Part shown: positions 53,316-63,818 of the stretch, in pieces
Position numbering within the stretch: position 1 is the stretch's first letter
Layout of the letters: every line of letters starts with the position of its first letter
NCBI RefSeq assembly: GCF_001636345.1
Contig: NZ_KV440945.1
Coordinates: 958,975 to 1,022,974, forward strand
Length of the DNA stretch: 64,000 nt
Direction: 5' to 3'
From: Cytobacillus gottheilii
GTDB lineage: Bacteria > Bacillota > Bacilli > Bacillales > Cytobacillaceae
Notes under the pieces: model-generated
Database searches by the model: none
What the model was told of the DNA's origin: nothing
The model's input: the letters and a program-made list of their open reading frames with translations, nothing else
Program-made: the position numbers and the translations under genes

Positions 53316-54626
53316 ATGAAAAGGACACAAACAGAACACCTATTTACGCGGGAGGTTATATCAATGTTAATGGAACGAATCATGTCACGGGAAAACCTAC
53401 TTAATGCGATTAAAAGAGTAGAAAAGAATAAGGGAAAACATGGAGTGGACGAAATGCCCGTCACTGCTCTTCGTGGACATATTATGCTCAACTGGAGCGA
53501 ACTGCGAAAATCCCTCTTCGAGGGAACCTATATCCCATCCCCCGTCCGTCGAGTCGAAATCCCGAAACCAGACGGCAAAGGGAAGAGGAAACTGGGAATC
53601 CCAACCGTGACAGACCGTTTCATTCAACAAGCAATCACCCAAGTGCTTACCAGAATGTATGACCCTAGTTTCTCTGAATGTAGCTTCGGCTTTCGCCCTA
53701 ACAGGCGAGCGCACCAGGCTGTTAAATTAGCCCAAAGCTATATAGAAGAGGGTTATCGATGGGTAGTCGACATTGACCTTGAAAAGTTCTTTGACAAGGT
53801 TAACCACGATAGATTAATGAGTAAATTAGCCATGAGGATAAAGGATAGTACTCTCCTCAAACTAATAAGACGGTTCTTAACCTCTGGTGTTATGGAAGGC
53901 GGACTTGTCAGTCCTAACCTTGAGGGGACACCGCAAGGTGGACCTTTAAGCCCTTTACTTTCGAATATTGTGTTGGATGAACTGGATAAAGAACTGGAGC
54001 GCAGAGGACATCGCTTTGTCCGCTACGCCGATGATTGTAATATCTATGTGAAATCTAAAAGAGCTGGAGAAAGAGTTATGAAGGCAATGACCCATTTTAT
54101 CGAGAGGAATCTTAAACTGAAGGTTAACAAGGATAAAAGTGCTGTAGACCGCCCTTGGAAAAGGAAATTTCTTGGGTTCAGTTTTACAAGTAATCTAAAA
54201 CCGAAGGTGAGAATATCTCCCCAATCAGTTAAACGGTTTAAAGATAAAATAAGAAAGCTTACAAGCAGACGAAGGTCAATTGCCATGGAAGATAGGATTC
54301 ATAACCTTAACCAATATCTAGTGGGATGGGTTAATTATTATCATTTAGCAGATACCCGTTCAGTAATCGCAAAACTCGAAGGATGGCTTAATCGAAGGTT
54401 AAGAATGATTCGATGGAAGGAATGGAAACTTCCCCAAACGAAGGTCAAGAAACTTATTAAACTAGGTGTTTCGAAAGGGAAAGCATATGAATGGGGAAAT
54501 ACAAGAAAGGCTTATTGGAGGATATCCAAAAGTCCAATTCTTCATAAAACATTAGGGAAAGCCTACTGGCTTTCCCTTGGGTTAAAAAGTATTTCTGCTA
54601 GATATGACTTACAGCGTTCGACTTAA
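53316..54626 (+). CDS. ltrA: Group II intron reverse transcriptase/maturase
   Basis: 436-residue intron-encoded protein. Reverse transcriptase blocks appear in order: RVEIPKPDGKGKRKLGIPTVTDRFIQQA (near 86-113), FGFRPNRRAHQAVKLAQ, VVDIDLEKFFDKVNHD, GTPQGGPLSPLLSNIVLDELD, and the catalytic RYADDCNIYVKS (near 240). A group II maturase (GIIM)/domain X region follows at about 300-400 (DRIHNLNQYLVGWVNYY). No endonuclease domain is visible, as in class C proteins. It starts at ATG 53316 after GGTGGAGA. It assists splicing and retrohoming. Confidence 0.95.
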   Translation: MKRTQTEHLFTREVISMLMERIMSRENLLNAIKRVEKNKGKHGVDEMPVTALRGHIMLNWSELRKSLFEGTYIPSPVRRVEIPKPDGKGKRKLGIPTVTDRFIQQAITQVLTRMYDPSFSECSFGFRPNRRAHQAVKLAQSYIEEGYRWVVDIDLEKFFDKVNHDRLMSKLAMRIKDSTLLKLIRRFLTSGVMEGGLVSPNLEGTPQGGPLSPLLSNIVLDELDKELERRGHRFVRYADDCNIYVKSKRAGERVMKAMTHFIERNLKLKVNKDKSAVDRPWKRKFLGFSFTSNLKPKVRISPQSVKRFKDKIRKLTSRRRSIAMEDRIHNLNQYLVGWVNYYHLADTRSVIAKLEGWLNRRLRMIRWKEWKLPQTKVKKLIKLGVSKGKAYEWGNTRKAYWRISKSPILHKTLGKAYWLSLGLKSISARYDLQRST

Positions 54627-61330: not shown

Positions 61331-61699
61331 TTGAAACACGATGATATTTGCGAAGTGAGCTGTGTGGATGAGGTAAAAGTAAATCGAGTGAAAAATTCTA
61401 TCCAGCAGAAGGATACAATGTCAGTGGCACAAATATTTAAAGCTCTCTCTGATGACACAAGGATTAGAATCGCTTTTGCATTATGTGAAGAAGATGAACT
61501 ATGTGTATGTGATGTTGCTAATATTGTTGGCAGCACAATGGCTACTGCGTCTCACCATTTACGTCATCTTAAAAATCTTGGTCTGGCAAAGTATCAGAAA
61601 CGAGGTAAACTCGTGTATTATTCCTTGGATGACGAGCATGTCAGACAATTGATTCAAATAGCCTTTGCACATCAGCAGGAGGGAAAGCTTCATGAATAA
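61331..61699 (+). CDS. cadC: CadC-type ArsR-family metal-responsive repressor
   Basis: 122-residue winged-helix repressor. The N-terminal CEVSCVDE contains cysteines in the CadC type-1 site region, and ELCVCDVANIVGSTMATASHHLRHLKNLGL (near 56-85) carries the CVC metal motif of the alpha3 helix and the HTH. It senses Cd/Zn/Pb in its family. A TTG start at 61331 follows GAGGAGGGG. It overlaps the cadA start by 8 bp, forming one operon with it. Confidence 0.93.
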   Translation: MKHDDICEVSCVDEVKVNRVKNSIQQKDTMSVAQIFKALSDDTRIRIAFALCEEDELCVCDVANIVGSTMATASHHLRHLKNLGLAKYQKRGKLVYYSLDDEHVRQLIQIAFAHQQEGKLHE

Positions 61700-63818
61700 C
61701 TCCGAATTGCAGAAAAGTGTTTACCGCGTTCAAGGCTTCACCTGAGCAGGCTGTGCGACAAAGTTCGAAAAGAACGTCAAACACCTGGATGGTGTTTCTA
61801 ATGCAAATGTTAATTTTGGTGCATCTAAGCTTACTGTTTATGGTGAGACAACGATTGAAGAACTCGAAAAAGCAGGAGCCTTTGAAAACTTAAAACTGTA
61901 TCCTGAAAAGCAAAAAGTTGAAGAGAAAAAGATTCCATTTTTCCAAAAACATGGGACAGTCATTGCATCGCTTATATTCCTGTTAATAGGCTGGTTGGCT
62001 GCAGAAATATCAGGTGAAAATAGCATGGTTTCTATACTGGCATATGCCAGTTCTATTTTAGTGGGCGGTTATCGGCTCTTTAAAACAGGAGTTATGAATT
62101 TATTCCGTTTAGAGTTTGATATGAAAACTTTAATGACCATTGCAGTTATTGGTGCTGCTGTTATTGGTGAATGGGGTGAGGGTGCAACAGTTGTTATCTT
62201 GTTTGCGATCAGTGAAGCCCTTGAAACATACTCCATGGATAAAGCACGCCAATCAATACGATCATTGATGGACATTGCTCCTAAAGAAGCTTTAATCAGA
62301 AGAGGAAATGAAGAACGCTTTATTAATGTAGATGATATTCAAGTTGACGATATTATGATCGTTAAACCTGGGCAAAAAATAGCAATGGACGGAATCGTTT
62401 TAAAAGGAGTATCAACAGTCAATCAAGCAGCTATTACGGGTGAATCAGTACCTGTTTCAAAATCAATTGAAGATGAAGTTTTCGCAGGAACGTTAAATGA
62501 AGAGGGCCTGCTAGAGGTAAGAGTTACAAAACTTGTGGATGATACAACCATTGCAAAGATCATACAATTAGTTGAAGAAGCTCAGGCAGAACGGGCACCA
62601 TCACAGGCATTTGTAGATCGCTTTGCCAGGTACTATACCCCAATCATCATGCTGGTTGCACTTGCCGCAGCTGTTGTACCTCCTTTATTCTTCGATGGAG
62701 ATTGGGAGAAATGGATTTACCAGGGATTAGCTGTTTTAGTAGTCGGCTGTCCATGTGCCCTTGTTATTTCCACACCCGTATCCATTGTAACGGCAATTGG
62801 GAATGCAGCACGTAATGGTGTTCTGATCAAAGGCGGCATTCATCTTGAAGAAATGGGAGGAATTAAAGCAATTGCCTTCGATAAAACAGGGACCTTAACA
62901 AAAGGAGTTCCTGTGGTAACGGATTACCTTCCAAATACAGATATTGATTCTGATGAACTGCTGACTATTGTTGCAGCTTTGGAAAATGGTTCACAGCATC
63001 CGCTGGCTTCTGCCATTATAAAAAAAGCTGATGAAGAAGATTTAAAATACAAAAGTATATCGATTGAAAAATTCTTATCAATAACAGGAAAAGGAGTTAC
63101 AGGCTCAATACATGGCATAACCTATTATGTCGGCAGTCCAAGTCTATTTGAAGAAATATTAGAAAATGGATTATCAAATGAGCAGAAGGAAACGATCTCG
63201 CAGCTTCAAGAGCAGGGCAAAACGGTCATGGCTGCCGGAACATCTTCTAAAGTTTTAGGGCTGATTGCTGTTGCTGATGAATTAAGAACAAATAGTAAAG
63301 AGGTTATTCAAAAGTTACATTCATTAGGAATTCAAAAGACCATTATGCTGACAGGAGATAATGCTGGCACTGCAAATGCAATCGGCCAACAGGCAGGTGT
63401 TTCGGATCTAAAGGCAGATTTGCTGCCGCAGGATAAATTAACGTTTATTAAAGGTCTGCGAAGCGAATATGGCCGAGTGGCTATGGTTGGGGATGGTGTC
63501 AATGATGCTCCCGCTTTAGCAGCCTCTACAGTTGGTATTGCAATGGGCGGTGCTGGAACAGATACGGCTTTGGAAACAGCTGACATTGCATTAATGGCGG
63601 ATGATCTTGAAAAACTGCCTTTTGCAGTTAAGTTGAGCAGAAGAACATTAACCATTATTAAACAAAATATTATATTTTCCTTAGGTATTAAACTATTGGC
63701 TTTGCTGCTGGTTGTACCAGGCTGGCTTACACTGTGGATTGCGATATTTGCAGATATGGGTGCAACATTAATTGTTACATTGAATGGGTTAAGGCTGCTG
63801 AGGGTGAAGGATAAATAG
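61692..63818 (+). CDS. cadA: CadA-type heavy-metal P1B-ATPase with an in-frame TGA at the metal-site cysteine
   Basis: 708 residues if the TGA at 61743-61745 is decoded. From ATG 61692 (GGAGGGAAAGCTTC upstream) the frame reads [21 protein letters not shown], so the TGA stands exactly at the first cysteine of the HMA-domain CxxC. The rest is uninterrupted and complete: transmembrane helices, TGES, the ion-site GCPCAL, phosphorylation motif [17 protein letters not shown] and [13 protein letters not shown]. Such ATPases export Cd, Zn or Pb. Reading TGA as selenocysteine (UxxC) is favoured by the adjacent hairpin; a disrupted gene is the alternative, and a start at TTG 61995 would then give a truncated protein without the HMA domain. 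Confidence 0.75.
61746..61787 (+). promoter_or_regulatory. Candidate SECIS hairpin downstream of the cadA TGA
   Basis: Stem pairs: GTTC (61763-61766)/GAAC (61772-61775), GAC (61757-61759)/GTC (61776-61778), GTG (61753-61755)/CAC (61782-61784), CAG (61747-61749)/CTG (61785-61787), with an AAA bulge and small internal loops. The apical loop GAAAA starts with G, 21 nt after the TGA, within the 16-37 nt and loop-G rules for bacterial SECIS elements. No computed energy is available. Confidence 0.5.

Follow-up and report, generated by a model that had tools for sequence, protein, structure and literature searches.

We conclude that cadA, at 61692-63818 of the window (the whole 64,000-nt stretch of Cytobacillus gottheilii DNA analyzed here), very probably encodes a selenocysteine (Sec)-containing P1B ATPase of the CadA type, with UGA 61743 decoded by the host's own SelA, SelB, SelC and SelD under the direction of an intragenic RNA element. 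The evidence we observed comprises the frame, its motif and domains, the Sec genes of the host, co-occurrence with selA, purifying selection and a conserved, covarying RNA; from these sequence data we infer Sec insertion at the UGA. A preliminary description of this DNA had already proposed a selenoprotein, and its proposal is supported by the sel genes, by the alternation of TGA with Cys codons, by the lack of other stops and by the conserved RNA.

Read directly in the sequence, the cadA frame runs from ATG 61692 to TAG 63816-63818, 709 codons including the stop, and its sole in-frame interruption is TGA 61743-61745 at codon 18. The TGA stands where the CxxC of the HMA domain has its first Cys (GFT-U-AGC). 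The codon-18 residue aligns with the first Cys of CTNC in the solved HMA domain 2aj0 (E 4e-25), whose structure entry is entitled 'Probable cadmium-transporting ATPase', and because of this alignment we place the residue in the metal site. The preliminary description had given both the 709-codon frame with TGA at codon 18 and the coincidence of that TGA with the first HMA Cys; both are borne out, and there is no further in-frame stop. In profile searches, CadA scored 615.8 bits with TIGR01525 (cut-off 346.25) and 533.8 bits with the cadmium subfamily TIGR01512 (cut-off 313.5); the copper subfamily TIGR01511 was also above its cut-off, narrowly (405 versus 397). The protein carries HMA, E1-E2 ATPase and HAD domains (Pfam PF00403, PF00122 and PF00702), a CPC at residues 353-355 that we take to be the transmembrane metal-site motif, and a DKTGT that is presumably the phosphorylation motif (Table 1). 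The gene before it encodes a cadC-like regulator (NCBIfam NF033788 HTH_metalloreg, 93.8 bits, cut-off 55; also Pfam PF01022) with an ELCVCD motif in its translation, and its 3' end and the cadA start at the ATG overlap by 8 nt. The nearest named relative found was Cytobacillus gottheilii, whose CadA is 97% identical and has the TGA too. Elsewhere in the window, directly before suf-like genes, the translation of an open frame at 53316-54626 resembles a group II intron reverse transcriptase/maturase.

Table 1. The cadC-cadA pair and its sequence features, in window coordinates
Feature	Position	Strand	Basis
ArsR/SmtB-family metalloregulator, CadC-like, start of the cadC-cadA pair	61331..61699	+	NF033788, PF01022, open frame
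cadA, heavy-metal P-type ATPase, 708 aa with TGA taken as Sec	61692..63818	+	TIGR01525, TIGR01512, PF00403, PF00122, PF00702
HMA domain, residues 10-60	61719..61871	+	PF00403, 45.2 bits, cut-off 24.8
TGA, codon 18, inferred Sec codon, presumed first metal ligand of HMA UxxC	61743..61745	+	codon counts, 2aj0 alignment
Putative SECIS hairpin 1, GUUC-GAAAA-GAAC core	61761..61777 (core 61763-61775)	+	loop 21 nt from UGA
Putative SECIS hairpin 2, AAACACC-UGGAU-GGUGUUU	61779..61797	+	loop 40 nt from UGA
CPC, residues 353-355, presumed transmembrane metal-site motif	62748..62756	+	read in sequence
DKTGT, presumed phosphorylation motif	62880..62894	+	read in sequence

Relatives of the gene were collected as tblastn matches that span codon 18, reach residue 600 and score at least 650 bits; 171 such matches yielded 135 distinct genes. 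Codon 18 is TGA in 95 of them, TGC in 23 and TGT in 17, so that TGA is widely conserved and alternates with Cys codons (95 versus 40). None of the 135 has a further in-frame stop, random or otherwise, in codons 11-680, in a sample where broken copies are under-represented because loci were chosen as best matches. Ahead of its tblastn match, one TGA-type copy (L135, from G124) has a second in-frame TGA at aligned codon 7, which either precedes the true start or marks a broken N-terminus. The TGC/TGT relatives are 68-79% identical to CadA along the gene. Whole-gene dN/dS is 0.06-0.10 against four of five relatives, the fifth (L188) being saturated at synonymous sites and giving no ratio; by these values cadA is evidently under purifying selection. 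Codons 1-17 are uninformative, since their ratios are scattered (0 to 0.84, two not computable) and codons 1-10 are variable.

One alternative is that the truncated reading is itself functional: translation would restart downstream (e.g. at TTG 61995) to make an ATPase without the HMA domain, and the UGA would be a selenium-responsive switch. A 607-aa frame from 61995 does exist. Against a restart, however, codons 11-16, 5' of the TGA, keep their amino acids, comparison with five relatives gives a dN/dS of 0.10-0.18 for codons 19-80, and RefSeq records of two Cytobacillus plasmids give a single CDS with a protein accession through the UGA. These CDS imply that NCBI already translates the TGA as Sec, in tables that do not display the exception itself. 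We regard the restart reading as highly improbable.

The host genome (4.59 Mb, 99.86% complete by tool estimate) holds the full set of sel genes: selA, selB (374 bits, cut-off 242), a tRNA-Sec (selC) with anticodon TCA above the Rfam cut-off, and selD (406 bits) with one in-frame TGA. The selD product reads STKAG-U-GCK, and selD of this genome and of its relatives is Sec-encoded, with two tandem hairpins 3' of the UGA (L138:13241). As a separate observation, a formate dehydrogenase alpha-like frame (L155, G000:C1:419210 onward) contains a single TGA and, after it, a hairpin whose loop is GGUCU; its family match comes in pieces and lies below the cut-off, and it is a candidate for a further selenoprotein of this genome.

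TGA copies of cadA keep company with selA. In a class-wide sample of 398 genomes, 86 have selA and 134 have a pump match at E <= 1e-250; selA occurs in all 19 genomes with a TGA copy versus 15 of the 115 other matched genomes (Fisher 3e-14), where at most two candidate places were scored per genome and further TGA copies could be missed. The single TAG copy (G282) and the single TAA copy (G401) are both in selA-less genomes. Each of the 193 genomes in the family sample has a pump match, and 172 have selA; among the matches listed, from 119 of these genomes, selA is present in 103 of 105 with a TGA copy and in five of 14 without one (Fisher 1e-8). The two genomes that have a TGA copy but lack selA among the matches listed, G169 and G171, also lack a tRNA-Sec over the cut-off; they share a genus code (g20) of which all 13 sampled members are without selA. 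The G171 TGA copy (L132:8511-8570) has the sole altered hairpin-2 loop among 74 tandem-hairpin rows, UGUAU for UGGAU, as if the RNA signal were decaying in a Sec-less host, and the contig also holds a Cys cadA copy at a distance of about 6 kb. The selD gene mirrors cadA, its TGA form going with selA. Matches were found in 92 of 101 genomes of the selD sample; among the matches listed, selD is intact and free of TGA in selA-less G066, G166, G167, G169, G175 and G192 (the last counted as selA-less by elimination) and partial in selA-less G174, and the remaining selD genes have one TGA each, that of G011 with a TAA as well.

Downstream of the UGA, two adjacent hairpins lie wholly within the coding sequence (Table 1); we call this tandem design type A. 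Folding energy by itself is weak evidence for it, because the 55 nt past the UGA (61746-61800) give a z of only -1.6 (15 of 200 shuffles as good); the narrower segment 61760-61798 gives z = -2.7 (4 of 200). Hairpin 1 folds weakly alone (-3.5 kcal/mol), hairpin 2 alone reaches -7.5 kcal/mol and both together -11.3 kcal/mol. What lifts the signal above chance is that the TGA and the hairpins recur in relatives. Across 84 distinct type-A genes (a set that leaves out L187, type B by its GGUUU loop), relative synonymous diversity reaches its minimum over 524 sliding windows at codons 24-35; it averages 0.23 at the 11 codons that can be scored in the range 24 to 36, versus 0.90 at the other scorable codons, and none of 20000 random sets was as low. 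At the scorable codons of the 24-35 stretch, 40 Cys genes show values of 0.52-1.43. The residues H-L-D-G-V stand at 94-100% in type-A genes and are variable in Cys copies. The preliminary description had noticed that codons past the TGA end first in C or G and then in T, as if an RNA structure were being kept: that pattern is a real RNA signature, but the hairpin it indicated is one of two that make up the signal.

Compensatory changes in relatives mark both hairpins. In an alignment of 74 distinct type-A sequences, 92.5% of cells are paired, compared with 34-46% in slid controls and 89.6% in column shuffles. Five pairs are changed on both sides, including G-C to A-U, C-G to U-A, A-U to C-G and A-U to G-C, and only one of 500 shuffles has as many; further pair types are unexceptional (32 of 500 shuffles as high), and kinship among the sequences inflates such covariation scores, as the tool itself warns. 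Within hairpin 1, two core pairs show compensatory change (GC to AU in four rows of 74, CG to UA in two). The pair at columns 20/34, one of 13, does not form in 60 of 74 rows, and helix 1 is therefore usually four pairs plus an outer one. Hairpin 2 has two-sided changes at two pairs (13 and three of 74 rows) and keeps the loop UGGAU in 73 of 74. All seven helix-2 pairs are retained by 74 of 85 type-A genes (a count that includes L187, type B by its loop), and at most four of the seven by 36 of 40 Cys genes. The Cys copy L134, from a genome (G124) that also has selA and a TGA copy, keeps all seven, as expected of a recent Sec-to-Cys change. An Rfam search of 61650-61950 at E up to 5 matched no family.

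A second design, type B, occurs in 10 distinct TGA genes, which belong to other families of the class and all lack the type-A hairpin 2. It is a single hairpin whose loop starts 16-17 nt past the UGA (e.g. CUGCUC/GAGCAG around the loop), with the loop (A/G)GUU(U/C) in 10 of 10 genes. The type-B alignment, which also takes in L190 with two broken pairs, has 95.5% of cells paired versus 30-49% in slid controls; three stem pairs show two-sided changes, a number equalled in 11 of 500 shuffles, the tally of further pair types is unexceptional (138 of 500), and RNAalifold added a covarying loop-closing pair.

The published bacterial SECIS model (PMC13188914) specifies a loop of 3-9 nt, a stem of 4-16 bp, a G in the first two loop positions, 16-37 nt from UGA to apical loop and a minimum free energy of -7.5 kcal/mol or lower; the usual loop has G and then G or U, and some elements fail the model, indicating distinct classes (PMC13188914). 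Type B fits it in loop length, loop bases and spacing. Both type-A hairpins agree with the model in loop, stem and loop G: hairpin 1, at 21 nt, lies in the distance range and its GAAAA loop departs from the usual G-then-G-or-U pattern, and hairpin 2 has G-G in its UGGAU loop but at 40 nt falls outside 16-37 nt. The Sec form of selD in the same genomes, like cadA, has tandem hairpins after its UGA (24 loci, 21 distinct, from the host genome and relatives). In 20 of the 21 distinct sequences the second loop reads AGUUU or GGUUC and lies at 33 nt, within the published range, unlike the 40 nt of cadA. Because of the type-B fit, the spacing and loops of the hairpins and the tandem in selD, hairpin 1 is probably a spacer and hairpin 2 the SelB-binding site; the type-A tandem may be a distinct SECIS class.

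The conserved RNA bears on the two remaining alternatives. A suppressor tRNA or general reassignment might cause the UGA to be decoded as Cys or some other residue, and this would also account for the alternation of TGA with Cys codons. But the host has a standard tRNA-Sec with anticodon TCA, TGA is the stop of eight among 46 ORFs of 150 aa or more in a mechanical listing for the window, TGA copies track selA, and a SECIS-like RNA would be needless; we give this reading next to no credence. A pseudogene or sequencing error, in which the TGA is a nonsense codon, whether genuine or artefactual, might be entertained because TGA is one base from a Cys codon, two selA-less genomes hold TGA copies and the compared genes are best matches, favoring intact ones, but it is exceedingly improbable given the strong selA association, the conserved RNA and the dN/dS of 0.06-0.10, and for the family the counts read in these sequences refute it: 95 of 135 distinct genes share the TGA, and none has another stop in codons 11-680.

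We therefore keep to Sec insertion and propose the following mechanism. SelA, SelB, SelC and SelD would decode UGA 61743 as Sec, directed by the RNA element inside the coding sequence; hairpin 1 most likely shortens the distance to the UGA and hairpin 2 most likely offers its UGGAU loop to SelB. When Sec is available, the full pump would be made, with U-x-x-C in place of C-x-x-C in its HMA clamp; when Sec is absent, translation would end at codon 18. The upstream cadC-like repressor presumably induces the cadC-cadA pair on metal exposure, and CadA most likely exports metals of the Cd, Zn, Pb or Hg class, with Sec presumably among the ligands of the N-terminal HMA clamp. Selenolates are deprotonated at neutral pH and bind soft metals with higher affinity. 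In the HMA site such a ligand could favor capture of Hg or Cd, or could keep the site active under oxidation; the preliminary description had likewise suggested that a Sec-containing HMA domain could differ in its affinity for soft metals.

On a FastTree tree of the 135 genes (HMA columns excluded, arbitrary root), Sec/Cys requires at least nine changes. Cys genes L083, L134 and L073 with L075 are nested in Sec clades, a placement that suggests loss of Sec. A large clade of Cys genes from many Firmicutes likewise branches among Sec genes, on a tree of arbitrary root and moderate supports built from sequences chosen for their similarity to the query. Plasmid records with a relative of the pump number 1913, the majority of these relatives being less than 60% identical; codon 18 was read in two of the records, both Cytobacillus, and these large plasmids carry Sec-cadA (L151, L152). 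A metal island (L137:1221-6857; also L131, L136, L144 and L195) is shared between G047 and four further genomes, together representing five genus codes, at 98.9-99.95% identity over 5.3-6.9 kb. Its ORFs, named by reading translations, are CadD-like, cadC-like, Sec-cadA, methyltransferase-like, MerR-like and cysteine-rich. One of its hosts, G169, has neither selA nor a tRNA-Sec over the cut-off. Such near-identity indicates that Sec-cadA moves between hosts, even into ones without Sec genes. We offer more tentatively, at somewhat less than an even chance, the broader view that Sec-CadA is old and common in Bacillaceae, uses a distinct spacer-hairpin SECIS, has been converted to Cys repeatedly and travels on metal-resistance islands; the conversions possibly include the ancestor of the Cys-CadA clade found in many Firmicutes.

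Selenoprotein families already in print include the 'cation-transporting ATPase E1-E2, UxxC' (PMC2398784, PMC5029168, PMC9312934 and PMC13188914), with counts of 25 and 32 in its table row in PMC5029168; searched by term, PMC12013277 and PMC1794560 did not mention this ATPase. A 2026 review places the ATPase among predicted Sec-containing transporters, allows that Sec is perhaps a metal ligand in some other selenoproteins (SaoB, SaoC and UXX-star), and states that metal-detoxification roles need study. The published UxxC ATPase (ABB15669.1) is likewise a heavy-metal P1B ATPase with Sec first in UxxC, by a comparison of descriptions in which it is a table row or a list name, given without SECIS or metal details; unlike the published entries as described there, the Sec-cadA reported here is in Bacillaceae and common. 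In open-licence PubMed Central text we found no paper on Bacillaceae Sec-CadA, its RNA or its mobility beyond family-level listings, and no account of the abundance in Bacillaceae, of two SECIS designs, one of them tandem, in one gene or of transfer into Sec-less hosts. Cys-CadA (HMA yardstick 2aj0/2aj1) has the same domain order as Sec-CadA but has CxxC and has mostly lost SECIS helix 2. The UxxU metal-binding (seleno)protein NF041115 is HMA-like and matches CadA residues 7-49 weakly (28.7 bits, below its cut-off of 95); its profile has 74 positions, and unlike CadA it is not an ATPase.

The Sec residues known so far serve mostly in redox catalysis. Repeated swaps of Sec and Cys in one metal-binding domain amount to a natural experiment on whether a selenolate alters metal selectivity, delivery or oxidation resistance, and two SECIS designs at one cadA UGA make a good system for probing what SelB requires. 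A gene finder that halts at the UGA would miss the metal-binding domain of Sec-CadA pumps. If the proposed history is true, a selenoprotein gene can land in hosts unable to decode UGA, decaying or waiting there. For the bacteria that carry it, Sec-cadA would tie heavy-metal resistance to selenium supply.
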